From: Stentor roeselii
Taxonomy: Eukaryota; Ciliophora; Heterotrichea; Heterotrichida; Stentoridae
Length of the DNA: 64,000 bases
Direction of reading: 5' to 3'
NCBI GenBank assembly: GCA_006503475.1
Contig: RSEH01000114.1
Coordinates: forward strand, 81,452 to 145,451
A program made the translations under genes and the position numbers. The notes below the pieces were generated by a model. It ran no database searches. It saw nothing but the letters and a program-made list of their open reading frames with translations, and was not told the origin of the DNA. Below, in pieces: positions 30,870-63,736 of this stretch; position 1 is the stretch's first letter; every line of letters begins with the position of its first letter.

Positions 30870-31290
30870 GTAAATAGATATTTATAAAGTCTTGATTAAT
30901 AGTGTTGTTTTCGGAATTACTAGATTTTTTCAATCAGGAATCTTTTAAATATAATGAATTATATCACAAGTAGACCCGACTTTTTGAATAATTACAGTTA
31001 TTCAAACTGTTTAAAGATTAATAGGGACAGAGTAGCTATCTACTGAGATCAGACTAGATTAATCCAATATATTATAAGATTATTAGAGAATTGAAAATAT
31101 CTAACGATTGAAATAATCTAACGATTGAAATAATCTAACGATTGAAATAATCTAACGATTGAAATAATCTAAATAGAGCGACACTTGAAATGATGATTTT
31201 CATATAAATATCTCTTATTATATACTTATATATTTCATATAAACTAAAATAAACTGCAAAGACTTAAGATTATCACCATTTTGTTTATAA
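30870..31290. other. Spacer within the duplicated block, copy B
   Basis: These 421 bp match 27842-28219, with the extra length mainly due to a 17-bp repeat expansion. No gene is seen. Confidence 0.5.
31102..31169 (+). repeat. 17-bp tandem repeat, four copies
   Basis: The unit is taacgattgaaataatc. Copy A of the duplicated block has one related unit (near 28090), so three units were added after duplication. Confidence 0.85.
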
Positions 31291-37801: not shown

Positions 37802-37979
37802 TTATAATCGAATTCGTCCACAGAAAAATGGTTGGCTAACTTTCAATCAAATAGAAATCCATCTAGACTTAGAAAGAATATTTTTAAATGATCTATGACC
37901 ATTAGATGTGTGGATATACTATTCATTAGGTCTTTCATTTTTTACCTTTAATTTTACTTCAAATCTTTAACTAACTAAA

Positions 37980-42654: not shown

Positions 42655-42664
42655 GGTAAATAAA

Positions 42665-45600
42665 ATGAAAAAAGACTCCTCTTTTCAAAGTCGTGAAGAA
42701 GATCCGATCTCATCGAGGACGGATAGTCCGCTTTCGCTCATAAGCGTCCCTGCGGCTTTTGAGTATGTCGACGAGGCGATTTCACTGCTTTCTTACAATC
42801 CGGTGTCGAAAATATTCACACTCAATGCAGAAGCGCTGGAGTTTTTGAAGTCTCTGGGCAGTCCAGTGTCAGTAATAAGCGTTGCAGGTCTATACAGAAC
42901 AGGAAAATCCTACCTGCTGAACCGTGTCCTACTGAACCGTAAGTCTGGTTTCGGTGTAGGTCCAACAATAAACCCTTGCACGAAAGGAATCTGGCTTTGG
43001 GGCCGTCCTCTAAACGGCAGTCTTCCAGACGGTTCACCCTGCAGCGTAGTGATCGTCGACACTGAAGGTCTAGGTGCTTTAGACCAAGACAGCGACTACG
43101 ACACTCGTGTTTTCAGCCTGGCTGTTCTCATCTCTTCAAGTTTCCTTTACAACTCCGTCGGAACCATCGACGAAGACGCGATTCAGAAGCTGTCACTCGT
43201 CGTCAACCTCACAAAGCACATTCAACTCAAAGCCCGGAATAATGAAGAAGCAGGGTCCGAAGAATACGCGCCTTTTTTCCCTAAGTTCGTTTGGGTCTTA
43301 AGAGACTTTACCTTGAAACTCGTCGATGAAGACGGAGAACCTATCAGTGCAAAGGAATATCTTGAAATCGCTTTAAAGGTGCAAAAAGGATATTCTGATG
43401 TTGCTGAGGAAAAAAATCGAATTCGAAGACTTTTAAAAGAATTCTTCGTTGATCGTGAATGTTTCATGATGGTTCGCCCTGTGAAAGGAGAGGAAAGTCT
43501 TCAGAACTTGGAGAGTAAAGAGTTTGAAGAGCTGAGATATGAATTTGTGGAACAGGTCTTGGCACTTCGAAAAAAAATGCTTACTGGAATCAGCCCGAAG
43601 TGTATGAATGGACGTCCTTTGACGGGGGAAATGCTTGCAACGCTTATTGAAACTTATGTAAATGCCATGAATAAAGGAGCGGTTCCTAGCATTGAAAGCG
43701 CATGGAGCTATATTTGTAAGACTGAATGCGCAAGAGCTCTGCAGGATGCTCAGGAAGTTTATGAAAAAGTTGTCATGAACTCGGTTTCTGCTAAATTTCC
43801 TATGCATGAAGAGGAGCTAAGACTTTTGCATCAGGAAGCGAAAAAACAGGCTTTTGAAGTGTTTAAGGGGAAAGCTGTTGGTGATGATGTTAATTTGGTT
43901 AGGCAGAAGTTGAAGGATATACTTGTGGAAAAGTATGCGAATATTAAAGCTGATAATGAAAGTGAATCGGAAAAAAAATCTTCGATGTTTTTGAGTAATG
44001 CTTATGGGACTATTGATCATAAACTTAGGAATAATGAATACAAAAACTTCTTAGACTTCGAAAAAGACATAAAAAAACTCCAACGTTTCTTCAGAGAGCG
44101 TGGTCCAGAAGGTCCATTCCGCGAAGAAATCCTTCTCGAGTTCTGCCAAAAAAAAATCCTCGACACAGCCGACTACTTCTTAAAAGAGTCCCAAGGAGAG
44201 TTATCCTACCTGGAAGACACCTTCACCGAAAAAGTAAAACTTCTCGAAAGCGATTTAAAAGATTGCAAAGACGAAATGTCTAAAGAAAGAGCCGACTGGC
44301 AACGACGTCTAACATCAGCAGAAAGCGAAAAAACTGAATTTTCCGCAAAAGAAAACAGTCTCAGAGAACAGCTAGCTTCCTTGAAATTCGAAAAAGAAAA
44401 AAACGAAGCCGATTCCCGAAATGCTTTAAAAACCATCAGGACTGAACTCGGAGCACAACTCGAGACTGCAAATTCGAAAGCCTGGGAATTTGAGGAAAAA
44501 ATGAAGGAAATTGAAAGACTTAGTTTACAGAAAGATTCAGAGTTTCAGGAAAAAGCAGCACTTATGGAGCAGAAGGTTAAGTACTTGGAAAGCAACTTGG
44601 AAGAAAGCAGGAGACGTGAAAAAGAGTATTTGAATGAAAGTAGAAATCAGAAAAAAGATCATAGTAGCAGCTTGAAAGATATTCAGGCTAGGTTTGAAGG
44701 ACAGATTAAAACTTTGCAGAGTCGACTTGAAGCTGAAACTGATAGAGTCACTGAACTTGAAAGGGAAATTGAGGAAAAGGATAGAAATTATGAAAGGGAT
44801 AAAAGCTTTTGGGAAGAAAGTGAAGTTAAGTTTAAAACTACTATTGAGGAGAAGACCAATCAGCTCAATTCTTTAACACAGGAGTCGAAGAAGAGAGATA
44901 AAGAGTACTCCAAACAAGAACGAAAAGACCGAAAAGAAGCCGAAGCAAACTCTTCAAAACTTTCAACTCGAATCGAAGACCTCGAAAAAAAGTTAAAATC
45001 TCAAGAAGACTCATCCAAAAAAGAAATCCAAAGACTAAACCAAGAAACCGCAATCCTAACCCAAAAGTTAGAATTTTCAGATCAATACCTTCAAGAAACC
45101 CGTGCACAGCTAGACGAAGAAAGAAAGCAGCACGAAAACATGTTAAAGTCTCTTCACGGTTCATCAGGTCTTTCAACTGACGACCTCGAAGGGCAGTTAG
45201 AAAAGGTCCGACAGCACTACGCAGACGAAACGCGTCTTTTAGAAGAAAAATCAGACTCAACCCGCCGAGATCTCTCTAAACAAATCGAGTCCCTCAGTCA
45301 AAAAAACACTGAACTCGAACTAGAACTTAAATGTCAGACCTCTGAACTTTCTCATAAATTAAACGACTGCCAAACTCAATTATCAGAAGTCACTGAAGAA
45401 CGAAACAAGTTGAAAGACTCTTTAAATGACTTCAAAGGAAAACTTGAAAATTCTTTCACTGAAGCTGAAGCGAAATTAAAGAAAAAAATTAATCAACTTG
45501 AAAGAGAAGTCGAGTCTGAAAAAGGAAAACATGCGGAAGAGGTTAAAACTTTAAATGATCGAAGTGAAAGTTCTTATGCACAGTTGAAAGAGTTTTACGA

Positions 45601-47614
45601 GGCTGAAAAGAAAAGACTTGAAACAAGACTTCAAGATGAGAAGGACAGGGCTGAGAAAAAGTTTAACTTGATGGTTGAGGAATATGATGATAAAATCAGA
45701 AGAGAAGCTGAAGAGTTCGAAGAGGAAATCATGGCAAAAGATGAAGAACTTAGAGATATGGACGCTTATTACAATGATGAAATCAACTCTTTAAGGCATC
45801 AAGCTGGACTTGACTTACAGAAAATAGAATCACTTGAAAAGTACTTGAAAGATAACAAGGATCAAGTCGAAGCTCTTACCAAGGCTCATGCCTTGGCACT
45901 TGAACAGGCTCAAGAAAGAATGAACAGTGAACGTGCCAGTCTCGTTGAAAAAATCGAAAAACTTGCAAATGACTTGGCTGTGAAAGAAAGAGAAGCTGCA
46001 GCTCTTGTCTATAAAAAAGAACAAATAGAAAATCAACTTTCTCATAAAGAATCAGAATTAGAAGACTTGAAGTCTCAGTCAGATAGAGAAAAATCTACAT
46101 TGACAGAAAGAGCTGAGTCGTTAAAACAGCAACTTACACAGGTTTCTGATGAATACATGCAAAAAAGAAATGATTTTAAACGGGAAATGGCTCTAGCACA
46201 ACAAGAAATCGAATTCAAAAATAGAAGCCTTGCTGATCTTGAAAGATCTCTTCATGATACTGAAGATAAGTACAATGAAGCACTTAAAAGTCTTAGAGAT
46301 GAAAGTGGACAAGAACTTTCAGCGACTATTCAGAAGTTGAGTTTAGATAAGGAAAACCTTGAACAAAAGCTAGAACAGAAAAAGAAAGAATTGAAAGACT
46401 TGTCTATTAGTTCTAGTAAACAAATTGGAGCACTTGAAAAGGAAAAAGCTGTTCTTGCTGAGAAGTTGATGTATACTGAGAATAAAGTTAATGATGTTGA
46501 ATCTAGGTATAAACAGGAAATTGAGAATTTGAATGAAAAGCTGAAGGAAAAGAAAGATGCTGAAAGTAGTGATAAGATGTCTGTTCATCTTGAGAATGAA
46601 AGGCTTAAAACTTTAATGCAGGAAATGGAAAAAGAAGTCAATGAAAGAAATTCTGCTAATGAACGTGAAAGACTTTTGTGGGAAAATAAATATAATTTCC
46701 TTATGCAGCAGAGAGATTCAGCTAAGACTGACCTCGCTGAAGCACAGAAGAAGTTTGATATCACTTTGGAACAGATTCAGAAAAAAGGAGCAATTGAAAA
46801 AGAAAAATTGGAGACTAATACTAATACTTTGATTTCATCTATTGAGTCTAGATATACTAATCAAATCAAGGACTTGCAAGAAAACTTCCAAAACCAGATC
46901 TCATCCCTAAACCTAAAAAACAAATCCCTCGACAAAGAACTTCGAACAGTAAAAGAAGAACTAGAACTAGAACGTCGAGGTCGAAACGCGAATTCAGGCA
47001 ACACAGAAAAAAAAATCCAAGAGTTGCAAGATACCGAAAATCGTTTATTAAGCGAAATCGACCTTCTAAAAAAAGACCGTGAGAAGAAAATCGAAGAGCT
47101 TCAAGACACATTAACCTACGAAAAAGAACAACTGAAGGTAAAAATCACAGACCTCGAAAAAAGGGCAAAAGAAGCAGAGCACTTAAAAGGCATGATGTTC
47201 ATCGAGCATGAGAAAGAAAAAGCGAAATGGAACTCAGAACGTGATCATCTCATGTCACAGAAAAATGAAGCTTTGGAAAACCTGGAAAGAGTTGAAAAGA
47301 AAAAAGAAACTCTTCTCAGGGAAAATGAAAAACTTAGAGTTGAAAGGGGAAAAAATCGAAGTCAGGCTGCGGCTTTTATGAGAAGGGGAGAAGCTACTGC
47401 TCAGCAGGAAAAACAAGGAGTTAGTAAGTTGTTTTCACAGGCTGGGATTTCTTTTGAGGACTTTGCTAAGGAGAGGAATGAGGAGGAACAGTCTGGAAGG
47501 GATGCTAATATGGTTAGTCCTGGAATTGGACGACGTGGTACTACTCCGCTTAACTTTAAAGATCGCAAACGAAGCGGACTCGGTTTCGAGAAGTTAGACC
47601 CAAGTAACAATTAG
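42665..47614 (+). CDS. Guanylate-binding-protein-like large GTPase with very long coiled coil
   Basis: The protein has 1649 residues. The N-terminal GB1/RHD3-type GTPase has the P-loop GLYRTGKS (75-82), a switch segment PTINPCTKGIWLWG with the conserved Thr, DTEG (G3) and the GBP-type RD motif (WVLRDF) in place of NKxD. A helical middle domain follows to about 530. Residues about 530-1560 are one almost unbroken Glu/Lys/Arg-rich coiled coil, then a short tail (RRGEATAQQEKQGVSKLFSQAGISFEDFAKER). Animal GBPs are about 600 residues; plant GBPL3 and protist forms also carry extended coils. Family role: GTP-driven assembly on membranes or condensates. No CaaX box. Synonymous composition resets abruptly near 44040, 44895 and 46865. 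Confidence 0.92.
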   Translation: MKKDSSFQSREEDPISSRTDSPLSLISVPAAFEYVDEAISLLSYNPVSKIFTLNAEALEFLKSLGSPVSVISVAGLYRTGKSYLLNRVLLNRKSGFGVGPTINPCTKGIWLWGRPLNGSLPDGSPCSVVIVDTEGLGALDQDSDYDTRVFSLAVLISSSFLYNSVGTIDEDAIQKLSLVVNLTKHIQLKARNNEEAGSEEYAPFFPKFVWVLRDFTLKLVDEDGEPISAKEYLEIALKVQKGYSDVAEEKNRIRRLLKEFFVDRECFMMVRPVKGEESLQNLESKEFEELRYEFVEQVLALRKKMLTGISPKCMNGRPLTGEMLATLIETYVNAMNKGAVPSIESAWSYICKTECARALQDAQEVYEKVVMNSVSAKFPMHEEELRLLHQEAKKQAFEVFKGKAVGDDVNLVRQKLKDILVEKYANIKADNESESEKKSSMFLSNAYGTIDHKLRNNEYKNFLDFEKDIKKLQRFFRERGPEGPFREEILLEFCQKKILDTADYFLKESQGELSYLEDTFTEKVKLLESDLKDCKDEMSKERADWQRRLTSAESEKTEFSAKENSLREQLASLKFEKEKNEADSRNALKTIRTELGAQLETANSKAWEFEEKMKEIERLSLQKDSEFQEKAALMEQKVKYLESNLEESRRREKEYLNESRNQKKDHSSSLKDIQARFEGQIKTLQSRLEAETDRVTELEREIEEKDRNYERDKSFWEESEVKFKTTIEEKTNQLNSLTQESKKRDKEYSKQERKDRKEAEANSSKLSTRIEDLEKKLKSQEDSSKKEIQRLNQETAILTQKLEFSDQYLQETRAQLDEERKQHENMLKSLHGSSGLSTDDLEGQLEKVRQHYADETRLLEEKSDSTRRDLSKQIESLSQKNTELELELKCQTSELSHKLNDCQTQLSEVTEERNKLKDSLNDFKGKLENSFTEAEAKLKKKINQLEREVESEKGKHAEEVKTLNDRSESSYAQLKEFYEAEKKRLETRLQDEKDRAEKKFNLMVEEYDDKIRREAEEFEEEIMAKDEELRDMDAYYNDEINSLRHQAGLDLQKIESLEKYLKDNKDQVEALTKAHALALEQAQERMNSERASLVEKIEKLANDLAVKEREAAALVYKKEQIENQLSHKESELEDLKSQSDREKSTLTERAESLKQQLTQVSDEYMQKRNDFKREMALAQQEIEFKNRSLADLERSLHDTEDKYNEALKSLRDESGQELSATIQKLSLDKENLEQKLEQKKKELKDLSISSSKQIGALEKEKAVLAEKLMYTENKVNDVESRYKQEIENLNEKLKEKKDAESSDKMSVHLENERLKTLMQEMEKEVNERNSANERERLLWENKYNFLMQQRDSAKTDLAEAQKKFDITLEQIQKKGAIEKEKLETNTNTLISSIESRYTNQIKDLQENFQNQISSLNLKNKSLDKELRTVKEELELERRGRNANSGNTEKKIQELQDTENRLLSEIDLLKKDREKKIEELQDTLTYEKEQLKVKITDLEKRAKEAEHLKGMMFIEHEKEKAKWNSERDHLMSQKNEALENLERVEKKKETLLRENEKLRVERGKNRSQAAAFMRRGEATAQQEKQGVSKLFSQAGISFEDFAKERNEEEQSGRDANMVSPGIGRRGTTPLNFKDRKRSGLGFEKLDPSNN

Positions 47615-48765: not shown

Positions 48766-49039
48766 TTAATGATTATAGGTAGGGTAAGAATAGTAATAAT
48801 GAACTTTTGATTGAAGGATATTATTGAAATTTTAGAGGATTTAAAATGAATCGTTAAAAATAGCTTTAAATTTTCATGTAAACCTCTTTTCTATATTATA
48901 TTGAATAATAAATAAATATAAATAAAAAAGATTTCATCAAAGTGACAAGATTTGTAAACCTTAATAATGATAACCTATTATTATTCCAAATAAATTTCTC
49001 TCTGAATAACCCATCTATTCATCTAGCATTTCAACAAAT

Positions 49040-51955
49040 ATGGGAAACTGCACATCCAAGCCAAACTCTTCCGAAATCAACCCAAAAGGAGGTATTCCAG
49101 ATTTCATTTACCTAAGTCGTTCAAAAGGTAAGTTACTTTTAATAAAATCAAATAAAGTTCAAAAGCTCTCCCTTCCCTCATCTCTCTTTTACTCAAAAGA
49201 CTCAGCCATATCCCTTCTTTCAAAGCAACGCTTGATCCTAATAGGTGGAACATTCAACTCATCCTTAGTCTCCACATGCAGCATCTTTTCTCTCTCAACA
49301 AAAGAAGTGAAAATAATGCCAGAAGTTCCTTTTCAATGCAAAGGGGGTCAAATCCACGAAATAGGTGAATGGATCTACTATCTAGGCGGGCAGACCTCAG
49401 AAAACAACGAACTGGTCCAAGCCTCAATTGCGAGACTTAGCCAAAAACAGAACATTTGGCAAGAAATCAAAGAACCTCAAAGAACCAGCTCGACTTTCAA
49501 GTTTTCGTCGTTGATGAACTTCGGCTCTTGTGTCATGGACAAAAAAATCTTTATATTTGGAGGGAAAAGGTTTAACAAACTAGGAAATCTTAAAGCGAGT
49601 GACTTGATCTTGTCTTTAACTGTTGATCAAGGGTTTTTATTGAAAACTGAAGCGAAAATGCCTTTTAAAGTTTGTAGTCCTTTAGTGGCTTCTGGGGATA
49701 AACATGGGATTGTCGTTGGTGGCACTGACCCGAAAGATGGGAGTTTTAACAAGGCTTGCTTTTATGTTGTTTTGAAGGATAATGTTCTTAAGCCTCGATT
49801 GATTGAACCACTCAATATGGAGTTTAAAGAATCGTATCCTCCTTTGTATACTCAGGATTATTCCGTTTTTGTTAGTTATCCGAATGTCGCTGTCAGGTTT
49901 AAGGATAAGAATTTTTGGAAAACTTTTCATATTAAACCGAAAAAAAATATCAAACCTAGAAGACCTAGAATTGATTTAAGGGTCAGTGTTGAACCTGTTC
50001 AGGTTGTTGTTAATGAAAAAAATGAAGAGATTTTTGAAGAGAGAGATAAAAAGGATGAAAATTTTGAAGTGAATAAGGATTATTTTGAGAAAAATAAAGG
50101 GAAAAGGTCTAAATCGAACTCGTCTAAATCATCTAGATCTTCTAAGTCATCCAAGCCAGCTTCATCTAAACTCTCTAAAACTTCATCAAAAGTATCTAAA
50201 TCCTCATCAAAATCCTCTAAAATCTCATCAAAATCTGCTAAAAGCTCATTAAACCCTTCTAAATCCTCATCAAAAAGTTCAAGATCTTCCTTAAAAAGTT
50301 CAAAATCATCAATTTCTGATACTAACTCACTTAAAAACCATAAAGAAAAGTCTAAAATGCTTCTTGAAGATTCAATGCGCTCCAATTCATCTTTAAACTT
50401 ATCAATATCGACAGGCAATAAAGCTCTTTCAATGCAATCAGGTCTAAGCATCTCAAACTCGAGTTCAGCCTTTCCTCACGTCAATAATCCAGAGACTCCA
50501 AAAGACCGAGTTTTGCTTAAAACAAAGACCCCAGATTTGAAACAAATTCAAACTGGTGAAAATCTTGCTCACAAAATCACTGTTTTAAAGGAAAACGAAG
50601 GCAACCAGTCATCGCGATTCAAGAATAAAAAAATAGTGATCATTGAAAAAAATGATCATAAAAGTTCAAATAATGAGTCTTCATCATCATCAAGTAGCTC
50701 TCAAAAAAGCAGGTCTTCTTCAATTGGAAAGTCGAGTAGTTCGTCTTCGAAATCTAGTAAAAGTAGCCAAAGGAAAGGAAATATTGCTTCTTTTTTAAAT
50801 ATTGATAGTCAAAATTTGGATAGGCGAGAAAGTCAGGAAAAGATTAATAATTCGAGTGGGTTTGGCTCAGGTATTGAAGAGCAGATGAAGGCTTATAAGG
50901 AATCTGTCAATCAAAACATGAAATACCGACCGACGTCCCCAGCGATCCCAATAAATTCCCTTGGAATAGACTTGAAGCTTCCAGTGATCAGCACACCTAA
51001 AAGTTCAGTGATTCGATCAGAATCATCTAGTTTATTAGAAGACTACAAGACATACGATAGCCTCGAGAGAAAAAAATCTGATAGCTTGAAAATGAGTGAA
51101 CCACAACATCCATCCACTGATCGGCCATCTGATATATACAAACCGAATTCAAGGTTTATTGTAAAAAATGTGATCAGGTCTGAGAAGAACTCAATTCGAT
51201 TAACCCCGAAGTCAAGTACAGTTAAAGTCACAAAATCATCTAGCTCGTCATCAAGTGAAGATTCAGGACCTGAAACTCCTACCAAAGTAACTGGTCTTTA
51301 CGTGATGCCCGAAGACCATGCCCAGATCCTTTCACCAGTCCCTGAGTTTCAAATAGAAGATTCAATCTGTGTCCACGAAAATCAAGAAAACCCTAAATCC
51401 GAAAAAAATGAAGATTCAGAATCAGGACTAATAATCCAATCCGACAGTTACAGTAATTCAGACTCAAGTTCCTCTGAAGATTCAGATTCCTCAAATTCCA
51501 GCTCTTCAAGTTCTTTGAACAGAAAACGAATGGAAAACAAGGCAAAAAGACTGAAGTCAAGTGTGAGGTCAGTCGACTCATCCGACGTGTCAGACACTGA
51601 AAACGACGAGTCCATTTCATTCGAATTCGCTCAAGGTCAGAAATTTTTGCAACTTGTAAGCAAGTCCTTGAAAATAAACCCGTTTTTTTCTGTTCCTAGC
51701 AGTCTTAACTGCTCAGATATGCAGAAATATCTTAGAAGCTTTGTACCGAATAGGGAATATCAACTTCATGGAGAACTTTTTGAGGTTTTTAAGGAAATTC
51801 ATGAGGTTGCTGGGAAAAAGCCTTTAAAGGAGAAGGAAAAGTGGAATATTGTCATGGCTTCGAAGTTGTTACCTGAGATTCAAGAGGTTTCTGCGGAAGA
51901 ACTCGCTTTTGCATTGGGAAGAGCTTTTAAATATATCTTGATGAGGGAAGCTTAG
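49040..51955 (+). CDS. Kelch-like / Ser-rich protein with N-myristoylation signal
   Basis: The protein has 971 residues. The start MGNCTSKPNSS fits a Gly2 myristoylation site with a Cys4 palmitoylation site, so membrane-inner-face location is likely. Residues about 20-290 have kelch-like strands (QRLILIGGTFNSSLV, EWIYYLGGQTSEN, KKIFIFGGKRFNKLG, HGIVVGGTDPKDGS). A long low-complexity region of Ser and Lys follows (about 340-860: SSKSSKISSKSAK and similar, then acidic Ser-Asp/Glu runs), probably heavily phosphorylated. The last 100 residues are an ordered helical domain (FLQLVSKSLKINPFF...FALGRAFKYILMREA), not recognised. No intron. Composition resets near 50100 and 50925. Confidence 0.82.
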   Translation: MGNCTSKPNSSEINPKGGIPDFIYLSRSKGKLLLIKSNKVQKLSLPSSLFYSKDSAISLLSKQRLILIGGTFNSSLVSTCSIFSLSTKEVKIMPEVPFQCKGGQIHEIGEWIYYLGGQTSENNELVQASIARLSQKQNIWQEIKEPQRTSSTFKFSSLMNFGSCVMDKKIFIFGGKRFNKLGNLKASDLILSLTVDQGFLLKTEAKMPFKVCSPLVASGDKHGIVVGGTDPKDGSFNKACFYVVLKDNVLKPRLIEPLNMEFKESYPPLYTQDYSVFVSYPNVAVRFKDKNFWKTFHIKPKKNIKPRRPRIDLRVSVEPVQVVVNEKNEEIFEERDKKDENFEVNKDYFEKNKGKRSKSNSSKSSRSSKSSKPASSKLSKTSSKVSKSSSKSSKISSKSAKSSLNPSKSSSKSSRSSLKSSKSSISDTNSLKNHKEKSKMLLEDSMRSNSSLNLSISTGNKALSMQSGLSISNSSSAFPHVNNPETPKDRVLLKTKTPDLKQIQTGENLAHKITVLKENEGNQSSRFKNKKIVIIEKNDHKSSNNESSSSSSSSQKSRSSSIGKSSSSSSKSSKSSQRKGNIASFLNIDSQNLDRRESQEKINNSSGFGSGIEEQMKAYKESVNQNMKYRPTSPAIPINSLGIDLKLPVISTPKSSVIRSESSSLLEDYKTYDSLERKKSDSLKMSEPQHPSTDRPSDIYKPNSRFIVKNVIRSEKNSIRLTPKSSTVKVTKSSSSSSSEDSGPETPTKVTGLYVMPEDHAQILSPVPEFQIEDSICVHENQENPKSEKNEDSESGLIIQSDSYSNSDSSSSEDSDSSNSSSSSSLNRKRMENKAKRLKSSVRSVDSSDVSDTENDESISFEFAQGQKFLQLVSKSLKINPFFSVPSSLNCSDMQKYLRSFVPNREYQLHGELFEVFKEIHEVAGKKPLKEKEKWNIVMASKLLPEIQEVSAEELAFALGRAFKYILMREA

Positions 51956-52141: not shown

Positions 52142-53719
52142 TTATTTTATAAGCTTCCACTTCATAAAGCTCTTATTCTCCTCAGGTGCTTCTTCCCCTT
52201 CAAAGCTGATAGTTTTCGGAGGTACGAAATACCCAGTGCAATTCAAAGACCTTTTCTGTTTAACCTCAATTCGACTACCAACTCTTTTCGGAACAGGTAA
52301 AGGTTTAAATACAAACTGATCCTCTTTCTTCTTCAAACAACTCTGCGACTTAGACTTACTTAAAATTTCCAATTTCCTCCTCAATCTAGGCACAATGCCT
52401 CTTTTCTTAACAGAAACCCTAACAACACATTCCTCTTCTTCATCAAGATGAACCTTAGAAACCGTATTTCTATTCCAAATCTGATTAGCAACTTCAAGTA
52501 CCTTAGCAAAACTCTGTCTATAATCAGGATAAATCTTAACAAATCCCGTTTCTTGTTGTTGTTCAAACAAATCTCTTTTAAACTTCCATTTCGCAAGTTG
52601 TTTTTCTTTCCACTTTTTAAATTCCTTCATTTTCAGCGAGTTGCGATCACGAAGTCTTTCTTTGACACTATTCGAAATGACTTGTTTGTTCATCGTATTA
52701 AGGTCGAGTAATGTGAGTGCATGTGAAATGACTGATTTTTTCACTTGGTAGTCGAGGTCAGAGTCAGTTGAAAAAGACGGCGTGTGATTCACTTCTAAAA
52801 GCCAAGGCTTCAAGTCACTGTCAAGCAGAATGTCGAAGCCGAGGACTTCGAAGCACATGCTATTTGAAGGGTCGTCAGGATGTGTGGCGCGGTAGAGATG
52901 AGACATCAGAGGAGTCCCGCTCATTATCGTTTTTATCACAATTCCACTTATTTCTCGCCATAGTCCACTCACGTTGTAACCCTTTGAGTCCAGGTATGTC
53001 AAAAGCCAGGTGAAACGACGCTTGTGGCCTAAAAATCCTTCTGATGCATCTTGTTGGTACTTCGGGTTGTTTTTGTTTATCGCGTAGTTTGTCAGGTGGA
53101 TAAAAGAGTCTTCAAGGCTGTTTCGAGGCTCTCGGTATTCTTCAGTTGCGAAACGCACAAGGCCTTCTTGGTGAAGGAAAATCCTTAAAGGGTCGCAACC
53201 TGTGATCAGCACGTAAAGTCTTAAGTCGAACTTAAGATTATCAATCAAAAAAGGCCTTGACAGGTATCGTTGTGCTACACATCTTTCAGGAAGATCCTCA
53301 ATTTTTCGAACTAATAAAATTCCTTTTCCTTGACAAGAACTCTCAGGTTTCACTATTAAAACAGTGAATTTTGCACGATTTTTTAAGTCAAAGTAATCTT
53401 TTGGTAGGACCCAGGTTTCAGGAAAAAAGTTGTAGTCGTCTGGAAGGGCTTTTTGCATTGTGTTCAAGTTTTGGGCTAAGGTGTTTTTTCTTGATAAGGT
53501 GTACATGCCTGGAAAGTGGTTTATTTTTTGGAAGACTTCCATTTGGGAAAACTTTTCGGGGGATAATGCACCGTCTTGCCAACATAGGTCCCAGTTTGGG
53601 TCTTGGTCGTTGTAAGAAAGTTCATAGCCTTGGTCTTTGGAGACACTTTTTACTATGTCATATTGGGTGTTTGAGACATTTATTATGATTTTCGTCTTGT
53701 CTTGATTCGTCTTTTCCAT
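52142..53719 (-). CDS. Tubulin tyrosine ligase-like protein (TTLL6/13-type polyglutamylase)
   Basis: The protein has 525 residues. An ATP-grasp TTL domain covers about residues 40-345: VLIVKPESSCQGKGI (ATP-binding lysine and glycine loop), CVAQRYLSRPFLIDNLKFDLRLYVLITG, GLVRFATEEY, HLTNYAINK, and the metal-binding end LLEVNHTPSFSTDSDLD. NHTPSF-TDS-LD and KPESSCQGKGI are typical of TTLL6/TTLL13/TTLL4 polyglutamylases rather than TTL itself. A basic C-terminal extension (from about 350, KERLRDRNSLKMKEFKKWKEK) is the kind that binds microtubules. It would add glutamate chains to tubulin in cilia or cortical microtubules. No intron. Confidence 0.93.
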   Translation of the reverse strand: MEKTNQDKTKIIINVSNTQYDIVKSVSKDQGYELSYNDQDPNWDLCWQDGALSPEKFSQMEVFQKINHFPGMYTLSRKNTLAQNLNTMQKALPDDYNFFPETWVLPKDYFDLKNRAKFTVLIVKPESSCQGKGILLVRKIEDLPERCVAQRYLSRPFLIDNLKFDLRLYVLITGCDPLRIFLHQEGLVRFATEEYREPRNSLEDSFIHLTNYAINKNNPKYQQDASEGFLGHKRRFTWLLTYLDSKGYNVSGLWREISGIVIKTIMSGTPLMSHLYRATHPDDPSNSMCFEVLGFDILLDSDLKPWLLEVNHTPSFSTDSDLDYQVKKSVISHALTLLDLNTMNKQVISNSVKERLRDRNSLKMKEFKKWKEKQLAKWKFKRDLFEQQQETGFVKIYPDYRQSFAKVLEVANQIWNRNTVSKVHLDEEEECVVRVSVKKRGIVPRLRRKLEILSKSKSQSCLKKKEDQFVFKPLPVPKRVGSRIEVKQKRSLNCTGYFVPPKTISFEGEEAPEENKSFMKWKLIK

Positions 53720-54205
53720 TAGAATGAATTACATTTTTGTTTATTCTAAGGGTTTGAATTGATTTTATGAGAGGGTTGTCATTTTTTTTACTTTTTAGAA
53801 GTTTTTTGGGTTTGGTGGATTGGGTTTTTTTGGGAGAAGATTAGAGGTTTAAGGGGTTTTTTAATTAGGACTTGATTTTAAAAAATAGAAAGAACAATTG
53901 TTAAAAATTGGTTTAATAAGCGGATTATAGAAAATTTTATTTTTCTGGCGAAGGAAGTTAAGGGTATTATTTAAAAATAAAACTTTGAGTATTCAAAATT
54001 TTGTTTAGACTAAAAGTAGCTAATGTGGTGCCACTCAAGAAGGTTATAGTTCTTTGTTTGGCTTCATATACCATAGTGAAATCAATCAAAAACTTAAAAT
54101 AAACTCAATAAACATTCAATCTTTATTCTAAAATCCTTTCTAATCTCAACAATAAACCAGTCCGAAAATCCTTCAACTCAAACAAATCAAATAAGAAAAT
54201 TTTAA
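53720..54205. promoter_or_regulatory. Divergent spacer with composition switch
   Basis: No gene is seen in these 486 bp. From 53760 to about 53970 the plus strand is G/T-rich; from about 54060 on it is A/C-rich and G-poor. Both outward genes therefore have A/C-rich coding-strand 5' flanks. Confidence 0.5.
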
Positions 54206-54697
54206 ATGGCCGAAGACGGAATGAACATAAAACTACGCAACTTAATCATCCGAGATGCCTACAAAGAACGTTACCTAAAAGAAAAAGCTCTAGAAAAAGA
54301 AAAAGAACGTAAAAACCGCGATGAAATCATGCAAAGATCAGCAGCCCGGTTTTCAGGTTCTCCATTCCGAGTGAATTTTATAGGATTAGAAGAAATCAGC
54401 GAACTGAAACGAAAACACGAAAAAAAGCCTTCAAAGGTGAAAAAGTCTTCAAAGTTCAAGCGAAAAATCTCAGAGACCCGTGACCAGAAGTTTTTATCAA
54501 AGCTTAGAAATGAAGTCCGTCAGATAGAAAACAGTATTTTTTACTTAGACGAGAAAAAGTTAGAAGCGGCCTTGACTGAAAAAAAAGTCTTGTCAACAAC
54601 TTATGATCTAAACAGCAGGGCAAGGCATAAATCGAAGGAAAGTGAAAGTTTTCACTCGAGAGGCGGAAACCTTGTTGATTCTTCCAGTTTTATTTAA
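54206..54697 (+). CDS. Small basic helical protein, unknown
   Basis: The protein has 163 residues and I do not recognise it. It is highly charged: YKERYLKEKALEKEKERKNR near residue 20 is a helix, then a short patch SAARFSGSPFRVNFIGLEEI, a Lys/Ser-rich stretch (KKPSKVKKSSKFKRK) and a second helix (LSKLRNEVRQIENSIFYLDE). There is no membrane or signal segment. It could be a nuclear or ciliary microtubule-inner protein by composition, but nothing specific supports that. It is followed by the RPS29 gene 51 bp downstream on the same strand. Confidence 0.7.
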   Translation: MAEDGMNIKLRNLIIRDAYKERYLKEKALEKEKERKNRDEIMQRSAARFSGSPFRVNFIGLEEISELKRKHEKKPSKVKKSSKFKRKISETRDQKFLSKLRNEVRQIENSIFYLDEKKLEAALTEKKVLSTTYDLNSRARHKSKESESFHSRGGNLVDSSSFI

Positions 54698-55042: not shown

Positions 55043-58000
55043 ATGTTTGAGCAGAAGTTTAAAGCCTTAATCTTAGGTTTCTTAGGAGAATTTGTCGAAG
55101 AGTTCGACGACAGCAGTCTTCGAGTAGACAACTGGAGTGGTCAAGTGACACAGACGCGTTTACGACTATTACCAGGAAGTCTAAGATTTTTAAGCATGAT
55201 GCTCGGAATCGACATTCGAGTAGTTCGAGGAATAATCGGTACCCTGCAACTGAGCTTCAACTGGCGAGCCTTATGGAAAGAGCCAATAAAACTAACACTA
55301 GAAGACCTTTACATCGTCTGCAAGCCAAGCGACACTCCAGACGCATCAATCTTCACCGCCTCTCAAAGAAGTAAAAAACGTGCAAAAGTGGAAGACAAAC
55401 AACTAAAAACAAAACTAATCAACCCAAACAAGACCTACTTCCAACAACTTGAATCAACAATAGTCGACAACCTGTGCGTGTCAGTCAAAAACGTGCATAT
55501 TCGCTATGAAGACACTACTTCCAACCCGTTCAAACCCTTTGTGATCGGATTTACTTTAGATAAACTGAACTACTCCCCAGCAGACTCTAGTTGGAAGAAG
55601 AGTTTCGTGACATTAGAAGCGAAAAAACAAGCGCAAAAGAGTTTCATGTTGTTGGAATTGGCGCAGTTCAGTATTTATCATATTTCTAAGAGTTCTGATC
55701 TGTTTACCTCGAAAGTTGACTGGTTGCAAGCGATTTCAAATGATAAGTTCGCGAGTGTTATGTATCAGTTTATTGCCCATCGTGATTCAGTTTCGCCTAT
55801 TTCGGACTTTTACCTCCTGCGCCCTGTGAATGCGGAGATTCGGGTGAGAAGAAGTTTAAAGCCACCTTTAGAAGCAGATATTCCTAAGCTGTCAGTCTCG
55901 ATATTAGTGGAAGAAATGGCCTGTGCACTTGATAATAACCAGTATCAGGACCTTTTAATGCTTGGATCTGTGCTTTCTTTGCATAAAGCTGTCGGAATTT
56001 ATATCAATTTACGACCTTCACAACGGCCGAGGTATAAGACGAGGGACTGGTGGATTTATGTTTTAACTCGCATTAAGGATAAAGTCACAAGGAAACTTAG
56101 AAGTCGCACTAAAGAGTTTTTGGAAGAGAGAAGGACAAGAAAAGCGAAATATGTCAGTCTTTATAAACATTTTCTTGTCAAGGAGTATGAAAGTGAGTAT
56201 AACAGGACTATTGCTAACTTTTTAAAACTCCCGAATTACTCAAGTTTGAGAATTGAAGATTTGAATAAAGAATTACTTCAGATTGAAGATTTGCTTAATG
56301 TTGAAGAAATTTATCTTTTTAGGTGTATTGCTGAAAGGGAACTTTCAGCTGTTAAGGAAAAGAAAAAAGGATGGTTTGAGTGGGGAAGGGGATGGTTTAC
56401 TTCTAACTCGGCTGAAGAGGAGAATTTTTTGAAAAGTCTTGTTGAGTACTCTGAACTTATTAGCAGTGATCAGCAGGTAACGACAAAATACACAAAATCC
56501 TTCATCTACTTCTTCTTAAACAAATGTTCAATATCGCTAGACAGCCGCCATATAAACAATTCCAGAGTCTCTCTATTAAAACTATCCCTTTACCAAGCAA
56601 CAGTTCACCGGACAATAACCCCATCCCTAACAAAAACCTTCGCAGCCCTTTCAAGTCTAAAAATAATCGACCCATTCACTCCAATCGAAAAGTTCCGAAA
56701 GCTATTCACCCCAAAAGGAATCGACGAGAGTTACTTCGAAGGAAACCCATCCTTCGAGATCGAAGAAGAAATCTTTCCAGAAGAAAACGACGGCTTTCCA
56801 GAATTTTCCTGCACAGATTTCAAACAAGAGCCATTATTCAAACTCGAGTTCAACTCAGTAGAAGCCGAAGAAATGTCTTTGCGAGCATCTTTAAAGCCTT
56901 TAGAAATCGTTTACAACAAGTACTGCATTGAAAGAATTACAAGTTTCTTTAAAGTCCCTGAAGCCCTCGCCTTATACGAGTCGATTGAGATCCAAACAAT
57001 GAGTCAGCTTTCAAAGCTTAAGACTCGGACACAAGCCCGACTTGACCTGCTGATGAAAAATCGTTTAAACATTGACATTGACGTGACAGTCTCAGCCCCT
57101 TTGATAATAGTCCCTGAGAACACTTTGAATGAAGACACGAGTTTGATTCTTCTTAATACAGGCGACTTGAGGATCACCAGCAAGCCTCGACTTTACAACA
57201 TCTCGCTGCTGACGTCAAGAAAGAACTCAGACATCGATGACAACACTTATTATGACGACTTTGAAATTCAAATCACTGATATCAATGTGGCCTTGATGCC
57301 TGCAGAAAGTTCAATCGCTGAAAATATTGTCGAAAAGTTTAATATTCGTATGCAGGTCTCGAAAAGTGTCATTCCGAAAGACCCTTTTCTTACTACTCTG
57401 AAGGTTTCAGGAGAAATCCAAGAGCTTACTGCAAAGTTGTCAAAATTGCAGTATATGACATTAAGACAGTACTCCAACAGTCAACAGAACCATCCTCCTC
57501 CAGAGCCCCTTGTCGAGTACAAACCACCTGTCATCATCGAAGACCCAGACGATGAAGAGTTTTTTGACCTTCCTGATAATTTCGATAGTTCAATAAGTGA
57601 AAATATAAAATTTCCATTTGAAAAAGAACACTTTCGTGCTAACTTCTCGATTAAATCAGTCAGTGTCGCTGTAGTTGATGAAAGTTTCAAAGAAGTTCTT
57701 ACTTTTAATGCGAAAGACCTGATGTTAGGTCATTCAAACCAAGAGGCTAAAAATATTTTCGCTTTGCGATTAGGATATATTCAGGTGCATGACTGGGTGG
57801 AAAATAGAGATGTCGTCAACTCGAACTCAGAAGCTTCTGACCTGGTAAACATTGAATTGACCAGGTACCTCGAATGTCATCCTGAGTACAACATTCAAGA
57901 ATTTCATTCACATTTCTGGATGGCAATCACTGATCTACACATCAACTACTACGAAGGTAAATCCTAGACAGAACTTTTCAACTTCGCAGTGAACTCTATT

Positions 58001-61000
58001 CAAATACCTAATAAATCAGTGCTTAAAGTTAATTCAAATTATGAAGCGAAAGTCAATTTAACTAATGTCTCTTGCAAGTTAACTGATAACGGAAAAGATT
58101 TAACTGAACTTCATTTGGCCAGTTCTGAGATTGAGTTCAATTCTTTAAAAAATTTTTCATGTGTTTTAGGACAACTTACTGTAAAGGATTTCATTCAAAA
58201 TAGCTTGTTTTTTGAAACTTTGGACTCGAGGCTCTTGCAGCTGAAGATCGAGCAGGGGAACAACGGAAGAGAATTTCACTGCTCGATGAATTCTTTTAAA
58301 ATCATCATGGCTACTGGGTTGATACTCACTTTACATGGACTTTATCAGAAGTCTTCTGTTAAGGGGATGTTAAAATTGCGTGATTCGCCTTCTAAACAGG
58401 AGTTTTCGAAGATTTCTGTTAAGGTGGAAAATCCGCTTTTTGAGTTTAGAGACTTGAGTCCTGCCTTGAATACTTGTGATGTCGATTTTGGAGCTTTGGA
58501 ATTTCATAAGGATGATGAAAGGGTCCAGGTTAGAATGAAAAATAGCGCAATTTATACTTTGGTATTGAAAGATTATGAGTATGTCAAGGAATTTTTAATT
58601 TGTGATTTTTCGTTGAATCTTCAAACTGATATGCCTGTAGTTGATTGTGTCATTCCTTCTATTAGAGTTTCAAGCTCGCTTGAACAAGTTAAATTTGTAC
58701 AGCAGGTTATTAGTGACTACAAAGAACAATTCTCTAAATTCGAAATAATCTCTAAAGAACCCCAGATTCCTCGACCAAAGCAAGCACCTTCAAAGTTCTC
58801 AGTAGAAAACATGATATACGGACAAGAAGAAGATTCAGAACTTCTCAATATTAAAGTTCTGCTTGAATCTGCCAGTTTTAAATGGAGTTTACAAACATCA
58901 TCAAAGCCGAAGTCCCTGATTGAATCTGAAGTTGAAAAAGTTGATTTTAACTATGTGAAAAAAGCTACCTCAACTTGGATCATGGTAAAAATCAATCAAC
59001 TCTCAGTTGAAAGCTCTAATCATGAGAGTTTAAAAGTTTTTTTCCCGCTTTGCCCTAACTTTTTACAGGTAAGTCTTCAGGATTTACCTAAAAAACAAAT
59101 TGTTGATTTAAAACTCAACTCTTCGAGAATCATTGTCACTCCTCTTGTGGTAAGACTTGCTGATGAACTGTTGCAAGAACTTTCTCAAGTTTTACCTTTA
59201 GCGAAAAGTGGAAAGATTGAAAGGTGCATCAACGGAGAATTCCAAGACATCCAGCTAGTCCTAACAAGCGACACAATAATAACCCAAGACGAAGAGCACT
59301 TCCAATACTCCGACCAAGAAAGCAAGCGTTTTATCCTCATTCAAATGAGTGGAGAGTTCCAAGGTGCAAAAGTAAAAAGCGAAGATTTTTTCGTATCACT
59401 AGGAAAATCCTCTAATTTCCAAGAAGAAATTCCAGGAAAAAACCTGATCCACCCTCTGAAATTCGAAATAATCTATTCAGACTCACTTCACCTAAACTGT
59501 TCAGAGATAAACATAGACTTTTCAATGAGCCACATCCACTTCTTCAAAGAACTCCTGAACAACTTTTCCTTTCCCTCAAGCCAAAGTGCAGGATCAATGA
59601 ATCCAAGTCTAGAAGTCTGCAAAATTCCTCTAAAACTAAAAATGCAACAACTTCTCTTAAGCATTTCACACGACAGTTCAATGCTAGCCTCATCAAACTC
59701 AAACACATTCTTCATAATCCAACTAGACACCCCATCAGCGACCTTTCATCAAAAAATTTCCTTTTCCACCCAATTCGCGATTTTTTACTTCAACCAGCAG
59801 TACATGGAATGGGAGCCTTTATTAGAAAAATCAGCGATTTCTTTAAAATTCTCTCCGAAAGAAAAACCGAAAAAAGTTGAATTCGAGTCAACAGGAAGCT
59901 TCAACGTGAATATTTCATCAGCGCTTCTTTCTTGTATAAGCAACTTTTACTCAGGGATTCAGGATTACAACTTACTTGAAATTTCAACCCCGACGCTTAA
60001 AGCAACAAGTCGTATTCAGTCCGGTTTCACCATCCGGAATGAAACAGGACAAAGGATTCGATACGCGATTGACAAAAAATCTTATATTCTCGCAAATCTC
60101 GAGGAAAATTCTTTAGAATTCGATGAAGTTGAAGAAGAACAGCAACTCGCTCCAGTCATCATGTTTAAAACTAACATGAAAGCTCGAAAAGCATATAAAG
60201 CGAAAAAAGTGACTATAAAACTAGCGGAAAGGTTAGAAATAACTGATATTTGTATTGATAAGTTGGGGTCGAAAGTTTATAGTCTTTCGAATAAAGGGTC
60301 GAATTATCAGGTGATCTGTGAAGTGACTTCGCGCCATGGAAATAATATTTTGACAATAAAGTCTCCGATATTTTTAAAGAATTCTTTGAAGGAATCAATT
60401 GATATCAGGTTGATTTTTTCGATGTCTCAGGCCAGGTCGAACGAGTCGCAGTACTCAAACAACATTCCTCTTTCCCCCATGAGCCAAATGCCCCTGCCCA
60501 TTGATTTCTTGGGCTTCACCGAGTTTCAACTAAAGATCAAAGGATACAGCTGGTCCCAGCACAAGTCAATCAAAATCACTGAAGGCACAGTCATTGAGTG
60601 CACCCAAGTTTCACTTAATTCTTTTGATAGAAACTCTATTTCAAATAGAGATCTTCATAAAACCGCTTCAGCTGTCTTGAAAGTCCTTCATGATGAAATC
60701 AAAGACGATAATGAAAAGTTTATAGCGAAAGTCTTTAACTTCGAAGCACCTTTTGTCATTGAAAATTGCCTTTGCTGTGATTTGGAGTATTTTTGTATTG
60801 TTGAAGGAAGTGACATCCGCCCTAAAGGCCTTCTTACCCGAGGCGAGCAGTTCAACTGTCTAGAAATTCACCCGTCGTCTGAAGTGTCTTTAGCCCTGCG
60901 CATCCCGGGTTACGACAAGACAAGTTTTTTAACAATCGAAAAAGAAACAAAGCAAATTTTTCAATTCAGTAAAAAACATTGCGAACAAGTCAATGTCATT

Positions 61001-63736
61001 TTAGAGTCTTCTGTGAGAGAAGGGATGTTTAAAGTCGTGCTTTATTCTGAGTTCTGGCTTGAAAACCACACTGGAATGCCCTTGCTCTTCAAGTACATGG
61101 AAAATAATCAGGAATACGACGTGATTTCTCTTCCTTTCGTTGTTGAAGGTGTTCATTTTGATGGACTTGACAGGAAAAAAAAAATGGGAACTTCTTCAAT
61201 GTTTTCAGTTTTTGGAGAAAAAATCGAGGTTGAAGAAGAAACTGTTAAACCTTGGATGAAATACTCGGAGTCGAAAAAATTAGGACTTAGTTCATTGGTT
61301 GATGATGAAGAAACTCATGATGAAGGGCAAGGAACTATTCGAATGTTTTCTAGTGACTCGGCAAATATGCAGAAAGCTTTTGTTGCTATTAAATTGGCGA
61401 ATTCTCATTGGTCTAAATCTTTTAAACTTGCGACGGCGAAAGCGAAAAATGAGTTGCTTACTTCTTCGGAACAAAGTATTAAAGCACTTGAAAATTGTAA
61501 CTCGAAGAGAAAATGTCTTTATGAAGTTGCTATGATGATAAGTATTGCCCAGCAGCCGTTTTCTAGGACGAAAATTATTCGGTTTATTCCTAGATTCGTG
61601 TTAATCAATAAGATGCCGAATTCGATTCTCATCTCGCAGTACCCGCCTGATGATGATTTAGGAAGTGTCTGCCGTTTGGTGTCAAATGAAAGATCTGCTT
61701 TTCACTGGCCGAACTACCAGACAGGCCGAAGCGTCTGCATCCGAATCGACCAATACGGTTGGAAATGGTCAGGAAATTTCAACATCGACTTTCCAGATGA
61801 CTTCGTGATAAGAGTGATAAACTCTCACAGTCACGAAGAAACTCTTGTTCATATAACAATAGCCTTAGAGGAAAACACCTTACATGTAATTTTCCAAGAC
61901 ATCTCACATATGCCTCCTTATCGTGTCGAAAACCTTTCAATGGAAACTTTAGTCTTTTCCCAAATCGACTCTGAAACCACTGAAAAAATTTTAAAACCTT
62001 TTGAAGCCTGCGGGTATGCCTGGGACAGGCCTCTTTATAAAAAAGTTTTAAAAGTCTCTATCTTGGCAGCTGACGCTTCTCCTGCTTTACACTTGGGAAG
62101 GTTCAAGTTTTACAAAAAGGAAGAATCGAAGACTATTGAATTAAAAGCTCATGGTTCACATAAAGCTCATCCGTTGTTTGTTGATATTTCGAACTCGGGT
62201 AGTACGAAAGTTCTTTGCTTTCGACATGAACAAAGTGATGAGGAAGGCGTGAAAAATGAAAGAAATGCAGTTGCAGATGATTTAAGTGTTGTGGTAAAAT
62301 TAGAGAGTTTCGCGATTTCTGTGATTAACATGACTCCAGAAGAGATAATATTTGCCAGTTTTAACGAATTAAACTGCCAGTTTACTAGAAGTTGTAATGA
62401 AAGTTCATGTGACCTGCACCTTAGAACAGGGCAGATCGACAACCAGATCTATCGAGCCTTTCATCCAGTTCTCGTCAGCATGATCGATAAAACAAATCGT
62501 CTCTTTTCTCTTGAGTTTAAAAAGCGGCATAGTCTGGTAAAGCCTAAGCAGTACTCAACACATGAAGTCGACTATTTCAAGTACTTTAAATTAAAAATCG
62601 CACCTCTTGATATAAAAGTTGACGGGTGGATCCTGGAAAGTGCTTTCGACTTTATAACAACCGCAAATGAACTTTTATCTCCAGTAATAAAAATTTAGAT
62701 CCTTTCAAAAGAATCAGACCCTGAGCTGAAAATAATTCAAAAGTTTTACTTCGACAAACTTCTTGTAGGAAGCTCAAAACTCAACATTTCATTCGTATCA
62801 ATGCCTTACATGTACAAAAAAATCGAACTTTTCAATTCCCTAGGAATTCTCTTCAAGATCTTCGGAAACATCGGGAACGTGCCTCTTTCATTTTCAACAT
62901 TAAAGTTAGAACATCGTCATTTGAACAAGGCTCAGCTTTCAAAGGAATTTTCTTCATTTTACTTCAACCAATGCAAAAGTCAAATGATAAACATTTTAGC
63001 GAGTTCTGACATCATCGGCAACCCAAACGAGTTAATCACTCATTTTCAGTCAGGGCTTTTAGACCTGCTGACATTTTCAGGAGAACTTTCTTTTTCAGGC
63101 TTTTTCCGCGGGTTGAACTCGTTTTTTAATCATTCAGTCTTCGGGGCTTCGAACTCGATGTACAAGTTGTTCGACTCTTTTAAAAACGGGATGAATTCAA
63201 TGTACTTGACGGAGCAAAAAGATAAAAGTTTAGTTTCAAATTTGTTTATGTCAACTTTGAAGCTTGGGCTCTTGTTTCCTAACCTCGCTGCCAGTTTTGC
63301 TAGTTCAACAGCGAATAGTATTCGAGATGCGGTACAGGAACCTACTCGGTTAAGGAGAAAAAGACCGCCTAGACCTTTTCAGACAAGTAGTATTTTAACG
63401 GTTTACTCGTTTGCTGATAGTGTCGGACAGTATGTGCTTAGTGTTGTTGAACAGGGAAAGTATTTCAATGAAGGGATTAAAAGTCACTCGACTGTTGGAG
63501 AACTTGTTGTTGTTGTTACTTCTAGAAGGGTTTTATGTGCGGTGGTTGAGGAAAGTAGGTGCACTTGGCATGTTTTGATTAATAGAATCACTTGTATTAG
63601 AGTTGATGAACAGAGACTTGTGATTTATTTTGTTACGGATGAACTTGGGTTTAGACAGGAAAAGGTGGAATTGAAGGGAGATGTTGAAGAGTTGAGGAAA
63701 CTGGAGAGTTCTGTTAATAGTTTAAGGATGGAGTGA
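55043..63736 (+). CDS. VPS13: VPS13-family bridge-type lipid transfer protein
   Basis: Three exons (55043-57956, 57972-62683, 62699-63736) give 2887 residues, normal VPS13 size. The chorein N-terminus (FEQKFKALILGFLGEFVEEF, then DNWSGQVTQTRLRLLPGSLR and LTLEDLYIVCKP) starts at residue 1. A long extended repeating-beta-groove region follows. The VAB (adaptor-binding) domain is in the region of residues about 1640-2350, with NKMPNSILISQYP and WKWSGNFNIDFPDDF. The C-terminal part has the ATG2_C/VPS13_C phrase ASSDIIGNPNELITHFQSG, then helices and a PH-like end. VPS13 moves phospholipids between organelles at membrane contacts. Read without splicing it looks like three genes. It ends in TGA followed by a tandem repeat of its own 3' end. 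Confidence 0.95.
57957..57971 (+). other. 15-nt intron (first) in VPS13
   Basis: It reads GTAAATCCTAGACAG and carries an in-frame TAG. Removal joins HINYYE to ELFNFAVNSIQIP. Confidence 0.92.
62684..62698 (+). other. 15-nt intron (second) in VPS13
   Basis: It reads GTAATAAAAATTTAG. Removal joins ANELLSP to ILSKESDPELKIIQKFYF and removes the TAG. Confidence 0.92.

Follow-up and report, generated by a model that had tools for sequence, protein, structure and literature searches.

A recurrent sawtooth of strand composition in a Stentor roeselii assembly and its possible origin at germline DNA breaks

Along a 64,000-nucleotide stretch of the Stentor roeselii contig RSEH01000114.1 (positions 81,452 to 145,451; hereafter the window), the composition of one strand drifts from A/C-rich to G/T-rich and then returns sharply to A/C-rich. 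An earlier note on the window had described this drift and its resets within a handful of genes. We observe it recurrently through most of the 204 kb that we examined, which comprise 144 kb of one contig (the window and the 80 kb to its left) and six 10-kb pieces of other contigs. This is a non-random sample: 144 kb come from a single contig, and the six other pieces were picked by contig number alone. The window forms the right end of its 145-kb contig in an assembly of 44.4 Mb and 522 contigs. We tentatively favor the explanation that the sawtooth is the long-term footprint of recurrent germline double-strand breaks and their resection, to which we give somewhat less than an even chance.

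Composition fluctuates along the A+C/G+T axis

The sawtooth was first described in a gene with Pfam matches to VPS13_N (6.3e-93), VPS13_VAB (1e-52), and VPS13_C (2.1e-12):

55043..63736, + strand: VPS13-like gene, one frame with two 15-nt introns, carrying the sawtooth

Holding the amino acids fixed, we shuffled synonymous codons within each gene and compared the variance between 40-codon blocks. On the A+C/G+T axis, VPS13 has 4.74 times as much block variance as its shuffled versions (z 21.9); there is no excess on the purine/pyrimidine axis (ratio 0.90, z -0.6), and the G+C/A+T axis gives a ratio of 1.77 (z 5.4). The compositional shift is largely synonymous, as had been proposed. At the strongest VPS13 reset, third-position A+C rises from 0.23 to 0.83 across position 56483 (90-bp window on each side), the string of third-position bases switches within a few codons, and the surrounding sequence (56000-57200) is single-copy in the assembly. 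Base counts reported by hand on either side of this reset are exact (C 12 and G 34 in 56341-56460; C 37 and G 11 in 56521-56640).

Of the 24 open reading frames (ORFs) listed for the window, 20 were tested (four with fewer than 300 codons were skipped), with variance ratios from 0.72 to 6.57, while the ratios of 74 ORFs of at least 250 aa range from 0.87 to 7.45. For the 66 open frames in the 204 kb with a length of 300 aa or more, the ratio is 3.37, compared to 1.08 in Escherichia coli K-12 (28 frames), 1.04 in Bacillus phage G (14 frames), and 1.00 in phage T4 (14 frames), each represented by 50 kb. The signal is weakly correlated with GC content (Spearman 0.29, p 0.013, 74 ORFs). The two outcomes that the earlier note had named as refuting the pattern did not occur: fluctuation and up-steps exceed those of codon-shuffled genes in variance, skewness, and gene-wide tests, and the signal remains in synonymous choice alone, so that amino-acid composition does not account for it.

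Rises are sharp and falls are slow

A slow fall followed by an abrupt rise gives a step statistic of positive skewness, which takes the same value after reverse complementation. At 150 bp, this skewness is 0.28 in the left 80 kb, which the earlier note had not seen, compared with 0.30 for the window (block t 3.46); the corresponding values on the purine/pyrimidine axis are -0.07 and -0.04. The six pieces of other contigs give 0.34 (t 2.84), with five of the six positive. Compared to a value of 0.31 here, the controls at 150 bp are 0.12 in E. coli (0.16 at 300 bp), -0.08 in phage G, and -0.03 in T4. Large steps (at least 0.4) in all 204 kb are upward in 75 cases versus downward in 32 (p 3.9e-5).

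The same asymmetry is found in synonymous choice alone. Over 64 ORFs, the skewness is 0.29, 0.41, 0.45, and 0.31 at 30, 40, 50, and 70 codons, versus 0.01, 0.00, -0.08, and 0.10 after shuffling. Gene-level bootstraps reach zero or below in 0 of 2000 replicates at 40 and at 50 codons, and in fractions of 0.0005 at 30 and 0.0035 at 70 codons. When resets were detected on one half of the bases, the held-out half falls almost linearly between resets from +0.125 to -0.124, and 85 of the 102 segments slope downward.

Since reverse complementation leaves the shape as it is, direction alone cannot tie the sawtooth to the coding strand. The coding strand, in terms of which the earlier note had described the pattern, is not needed to describe it, and resets are also intergenic.

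Anatomy and placement of the resets

We judged step width against a fit calibrated on simulations, as an uncalibrated fit is biased towards zero width. The contrast at 25-50 bp from the step is 0.455 (s.e. 0.036, 57 resets), which fits simulated widths of up to 60 bp (0.46-0.49), whereas a width of 100 bp gives 0.40 (about 1.6 s.e. off) and one of 200 bp gives 0.342 (about 3 s.e.). Individual resets are located to an 80% set with a median of 34 bp (96 resets). The two arms are equal, with means of 0.108 and 0.111 at 150-400 bp, and vanish by about 600 bp (72 resets). Detected resets are spaced at a median of 1.36 kb (5th-90th percentile 0.43 to 3.1 kb, 99 intervals), a range that does not favor the nucleosome array suggested in the earlier note. 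Inverted repeats were considered at 79 resets and set aside, as the 2.7 8-mers shared by a reset's own arms exceed the 2.2 shared between different resets by too little.

ORFs make up 73-77% of the left 80 kb and the window, where they contain 35 of the 59 resets; the other 24 lie outside. By raw counts from small numbers of gaps, without a significance test, reset density is highest in divergent gaps (1.15 per kb; 11 in 22 gaps), followed by convergent gaps (0.76), tandem gaps (0.60-0.71), and the interior of ORFs (0.40). Two of the resets between divergent ORFs are the following, the first being the largest listed for the window:

12550..12600, no strand: reset, D150 0.79, between ORFs 11360..12256 (- strand) and 12666..13565 (+ strand)
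54040..54080, no strand: intergenic reset, D150 0.51, between ORFs 52142..53728 (- strand) and 54206..54697 (+ strand)

At ORF starts, the coding strand shows a rise, from about -0.04 in the upstream sequence to about +0.09 around the start, as might be expected if mutation were linked to transcription from many sense and cryptic start sites. The skewness is equal in + and - genes (0.21 and 0.27); as the shape is invariant to reverse complementation, this equality does not count against a link to gene orientation. The 35 resets within ORFs are, however, generally not at starts. Moreover, exposure of the non-template strand would make the coding strand G/T-rich after the start, which is the opposite sign, and we consider transcription a quite improbable source. 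Strand-biased mutation with internal reset points, one of the possibilities raised in the earlier note, stands as the best class of explanation.

Within this class, the resets could instead be replication origins every 1-2 kb with an A/C-rich leading strand, in which case the near-linear fall would be a gradient of fork direction, as in a miniature N-domain. The linear return expected between jumps is observed in held-out deciles, more resets lie between divergent genes, and leading strands are A/C-rich in Saccharomyces cerevisiae, Kluyveromyces lactis, and Candida albicans (PMC3459929). The scale differs, however, as the yeast jump in GC skew is about 9% and reaches the average some 20 kb away, whereas here the arms are gone by about 600 bp and third-position A+C more than triples across a single step; the human jump is also opposite in sign (PMC3459929).

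We know of no origins of such density and efficiency, and we hold this reading to be rather unlikely.

Resets in VPS13 and three other genes

The earlier note had named 12 resets in four genes. We tested each on synonymous residuals with a gene-wide maximum statistic (400 shuffles, P < 0.05): seven of the 12 pass, four are visible but non-significant alone, and one, at 62400 in VPS13, is unsupported (step of just 0.38, P 1.0). The remaining VPS13 features are as follows, with steps given without strand:

56448..56490: strongest VPS13 reset; claimed at 56490, codon split at 56477, base-level position 56448; D over 30 codons 1.22, reached in 0 of 400 shuffles
57957..57971, + strand: 15-nt intron, A at position 10, away from resets
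58700..58730: probable reset; claimed at 58720, placed at 58715; base-level D150 0.49, synonymous D 0.73, P 0.79
59200..59240: reset; claimed at 59222, split at 59228; D 1.04, gene-wide P 0.010
60220..60260: downward step at 60242; D 1.01, above the 95% gene-wide threshold for down-steps
60430..60470: possible reset; claimed at 60430, placed at 60452; D 0.80, gene-wide P 0.44
61680..61720: possible reset; claimed at 61690, placed at 61700; D 0.81, gene-wide P 0.37
62684..62698, + strand: 15-nt intron, A at position 10, away from resets

Both VPS13 introns that we found lie off the resets, in agreement with the statement that splicing does not coincide with them. The downward step at 60242, which passes the gene-wide test, departs from a pure sawtooth and is the one such case in the four genes. 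Directly after VPS13, near the contig end, there is a degenerate tandem repeat of 35-37 bp (63707-63937).

The other three genes are:

42647..47614, + strand: GBP-like gene (Pfam GBP 6.2e-66), with resets at 44039, 44906, and 46883
49010..51955, + strand: kelch-like gene, with a reset at 50906 and a non-significant step at 50147
3543..4958, + strand: HD-domain (SAMHD1-like) gene (HD domain 9.3e-10), with a reset at 4329

In the GBP-like gene, all three resets (claimed at 44040, 44895, and 46865) are recovered (P 0.010, 0.003, and 0.003), as is that of the SAMHD1-like gene (claimed at 4330-4400; best position 4329, P 0.020). In the gene described as kelch/Ser-rich, the reset at 50925 is supported (P 0.013), whereas that at 50100 falls short (P 0.18). 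The latter adjoins a 21/42-bp tandem repeat (50162-50275) that may feed the step. The kelch assignment itself comes from a Kelch_1 match barely above its cut-off (0.00025), with the larger Kelch model under its own. The HD-domain gene resembles stretches in 13 phage records (eight from Listeria, two each from Staphylococcus and Klebsiella, and one from Enterococcus), and in five of the 13, the identity is 29-31% over 55-64% of the gene.

Paralogs and a repeat-rich block

The GBP-like protein (1655 aa) has five more near-full-length paralogs at 67, 52, 44, 41, and 36% identity, among 19 listed genome matches that include its own. When smoothed over 20 codons, the profiles of the paralogs with 67 and 52% amino-acid identity each correlate with that of the window gene at r 0.10, and with each other at r 0.24, all within the null obtained by shifting. 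By eye, most rises in this trio are placed differently; a rise near the last quarter is common to the three genes. The mismatch indicates that it is not the protein that dictates the internal pattern. Differing synonymous sites in the trio cluster by sign (z -3.1, -3.4, and -1.7), although the purine/pyrimidine control clusters too in one pair (z -3.0; the others -1.4 and 0.5).

A second comparison is provided by two intact genes for ribosomal protein L3 (contigs C357 and C130), which share 86% DNA identity over 1208 bp. Among solved structures, the L3 protein matches 5xxb best, and the Tetrahymena entry 4v8p ranks far lower, a result of no help in placing the organism. Their profiles have a common gentle fall from start to end, and no clustering by sign is seen in the pair (P 0.93). 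From this one pair, teeth at gene starts may outlast internal ones.

These comparisons bear on whether selection on codons, RNA structure, or translation could produce the sawtooth. The common gradual profile of the L3 pair is compatible with such selection, which otherwise finds no direct support. The GBP profiles do not match, 24 of 59 resets lie outside ORFs, and the purine/pyrimidine axis is flat. We therefore set coding selection aside on the paralog comparison and the resets outside ORFs, and regard selection of any of these kinds as highly improbable.

The sawtooth is weak in one part of the window:

19700..40000, no strand: weak-sawtooth block, low GC (0.314), with tandem and duplicated repeats

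The five ORFs of at least 250 aa in this block have variance ratios of 0.89-1.94, and the standard deviation of D300 is 0.123, versus 0.191 and 0.181 on either side. A weak signal would be expected if young or homogenized DNA had lacked the time to record one. The block contains in-frame tandem repeats with units of 147 bp (near 24152-24935 and 29585-29932) and 141 bp (33252-34155), and pieces of 27183-28497 recur at 30211-31568, where they are 85-94% alike.

Introns and the probable somatic genome

Genes in the window are densely packed and use the standard code. A search of 144 kb for short introns that keep frames open turned up seven with a length of exactly 15 nt and no more than two of any other length from 10 to 59. 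All seven start with GTA, end with AG, and have an A at position 10. In Stentor coeruleus, 8173 of 8806 introns are 15 nt long, and most have the branch-point A at position 10 (PMC9505925); Blepharisma introns are mainly 15-16 bp, and UGA is read there as tryptophan (PMC9942806). The likeness of the 15-nt introns to those of heterotrichs leads us to infer that the assembly is a macronuclear (somatic) one, from a heterotrich ciliate that uses the standard code.

A somatic assembly raises the possibility that the resets are junctions left by the removal of internal eliminated sequences (IESs), with germline breakage or stalling at these elements having mutated both flanks. Such junctions would be point-sharp, the introns are Stentor-like, and reset places differ between paralogs. 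In addition, Blepharisma has about 40,000 IESs, some 70% of them inside genes, a density resembling that of the resets (PMC9942856). Against this, TA is in no clear excess at the step (0.342 vs 0.316 for other pairs joining G/T to A/C), although location sets with a median of 34 bp are too wide for this comparison, and a search for a PiggyBac transposase domain gave no hit, its controls being equally silent. Removal is also somatic and hence not inherited, so that an extra germline process would be required. We judge IES junctions to be likewise unlikely.

Base changes and a proposed model of germline breaks

From the G/T-rich to the A/C-rich quintile, fourfold sites change from 0.22 to 0.38 in A, 0.10 to 0.23 in C, 0.19 to 0.10 in G, and 0.49 to 0.29 in T. 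These totals suggest that one strand loses A and C jointly, through transitions plus some A/T exchange. The proportion of C in C/T-ending codons swings most before G among the four following bases (0.11 to 0.60), and that of A in A/G-ending codons shows a strong swing where C precedes it (0.48 to 0.87), both as if C in CpG were lost from one strand only. The first and second codon positions shift in the same direction (r 0.23 and 0.30), as expected from mutation pressure.

We propose that each reset may be a site of repeated germline DNA breakage on an evolutionary time scale. For a few hundred bases, 5' resection would expose the + strand as a single strand on the left side of the break and the - strand on its right side, and the exposed A and C would mutate more than G and T, with C to T foremost and also A to G and A to T. 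The + strand would become G/T-rich on the left and A/C-rich on the right; composition would switch abruptly at the break, and the effect would fade with distance. Neighboring break sites a kilobase or two apart would produce the sawtooth. The likeliest source would be meiotic (SPO11) breaks in the micronucleus.

The model builds on the observed shape, sign, symmetry, and base axis of the teeth, the loss of C before G from one strand, the mismatch between distant paralogs, and the presence of one SPO11-type domain in the genome (TP6A_N 3.9e-18, contig C316). From these, we infer breaks, resection, meiosis, and the micronucleus as the cause. Breaks are favored because the strand exposed by resection is the one that loses A and C, as beside human hotspots, and break with resection would explain four features together: the anchoring at a point, arms of equal strength that extend for a few hundred bases, the strand-wise depletion of A and C, and a magnitude sufficient to determine composition. 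The density of resets in divergent gaps, the weak repeat block, and the shift at codon positions 1 and 2 also count for it. Promoter-associated hotspots are known in yeasts, flowering plants, and some vertebrates (PMC13186367). The germline mutation rate of Tetrahymena thermophila, 7.61e-12 per division, is very low (PMC5585995), and mutation at breaks could therefore dominate in a ciliate germline.

The comparison with human meiotic breaks is close in several respects. There, the strand exposed by resection is the forward one to the left of the break and the reverse one to its right, C>N and A>N changes occur on one strand and their complement on the other over flanks of hundreds of bases to 2 kb, and C-to-T changes in the off-centre peaks are raised in CpG (Hinch et al. 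2023, PMC7615360). Here, too, composition is G/T-rich on the left and A/C-rich on the right, with symmetric flanks of hundreds of bases. The human data are de novo and rare variants, and the asymmetry described there is absent within 100 bp of the centre on either side (PMC7615360), whereas we observe long-term composition, a narrow step, and a spacing of little more than a kilobase.

Several observations weigh against the break model. A central zone free of asymmetry for 100 bp on either side is not seen, as the contrast is already 0.455 at 25-50 bp. Inside genes, base-level steps of at least 0.36 show little asymmetry (38 up, 34 down). When half of the bases served for detection, 82 steps were up and 75 down, and one of the six other contigs (L013) has negative step skewness. 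A in A/G-ending codons does not swing before C (0.64 to 0.61), and there is no significant motif at 95 reset sites (best 6-mer p 7.9e-5 among 2019 tests). With A/C-rich leading strands as in yeasts (PMC3459929), origins would also yield this sign. A detectable site every 2-3 kb, dominating mutation, exceeds any break density known to us. Finally, the strengths of the left and right arms show no correlation beyond the selection zone (r -0.03 at 150-400 bp); at 20-300 bp, the correlation is -0.37, where selecting on the sum pushes r down.

This correlation does not tell breaks from replication fork barriers, at which two-sided stalling at fixed points would expose the lagging-strand template. 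Barriers would predict the same sign and arms as breaks, sharp steps fit them, and the arms would be equal if forks came equally from both sides. On the other hand, thousands of two-way barriers would be needed, over half of them inside ORFs (35 of 59 resets) and without a motif, which makes this explanation unlikely.

A stronger form of the break model would hold that most germline base changes arise in the single-stranded arms at thousands of fixed breaks, and that the somatic genome is a fine-scale, long-term map of these breaks in both genic and intergenic DNA. We consider this form doubtful. If the density of the sample holds genome-wide, the number of break points would be about 16,000 when the 75 up-steps per 204 kb are extrapolated, or about 9,000 when up-steps equal in number to the down-steps are discounted.

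Relation to known skews and implications

The earlier note's view that the pattern has no described equivalent is too strong, as skew jumps at origins (PMC3459929) and strand-asymmetric mutation beside meiotic breaks (PMC7615360) have both been described. The jumps at origins in human N-domains and in yeasts are alike in their linear return, and yeasts also have an A/C-rich leading strand; they differ in magnitude and scale (in yeast, about 9% over tens of kb, as opposed to very large over about 1 kb here) and, in human, in sign (PMC3459929, PMC3320577). Closer in amplitude is the 74% GC-skew jump at C. albicans centromeres, which is very large, local, and was judged there to be non-replicative, but it is confined to centromeres and appears to be opposite in sign (PMC3459929). 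Strand bias is also described in the somatic genomes of ciliates with nanochromosomes, where the subtelomeric skew lies on the purine/pyrimidine axis and is strongest within ~130 nt of the chromosome ends (PMC2633312).

In the open-licence literature on ciliate strand asymmetry, within-gene sawtooth or compositional asymmetry, and hotspot skew, we found nothing comparable. Work by Smagulova and colleagues in 2011 reportedly found that nucleotide skew changes polarity at the centres of mouse hotspots, the likeness being a flip at a point. Skew jumps at origins and hotspots are thus already known, and it is their density, amplitude, and place that are unusual here.

If the break model is true, sites of breakage or single-strand exposure in a germline nucleus that is hard to study would be readable from a somatic assembly to within a few tens of bases, and the turnover of such sites would be traceable across paralogs and species. 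Codon choice in such genomes would need to be corrected for position within a tooth, and one local process, rather than replication at large, would set the mutation spectrum of an organism.

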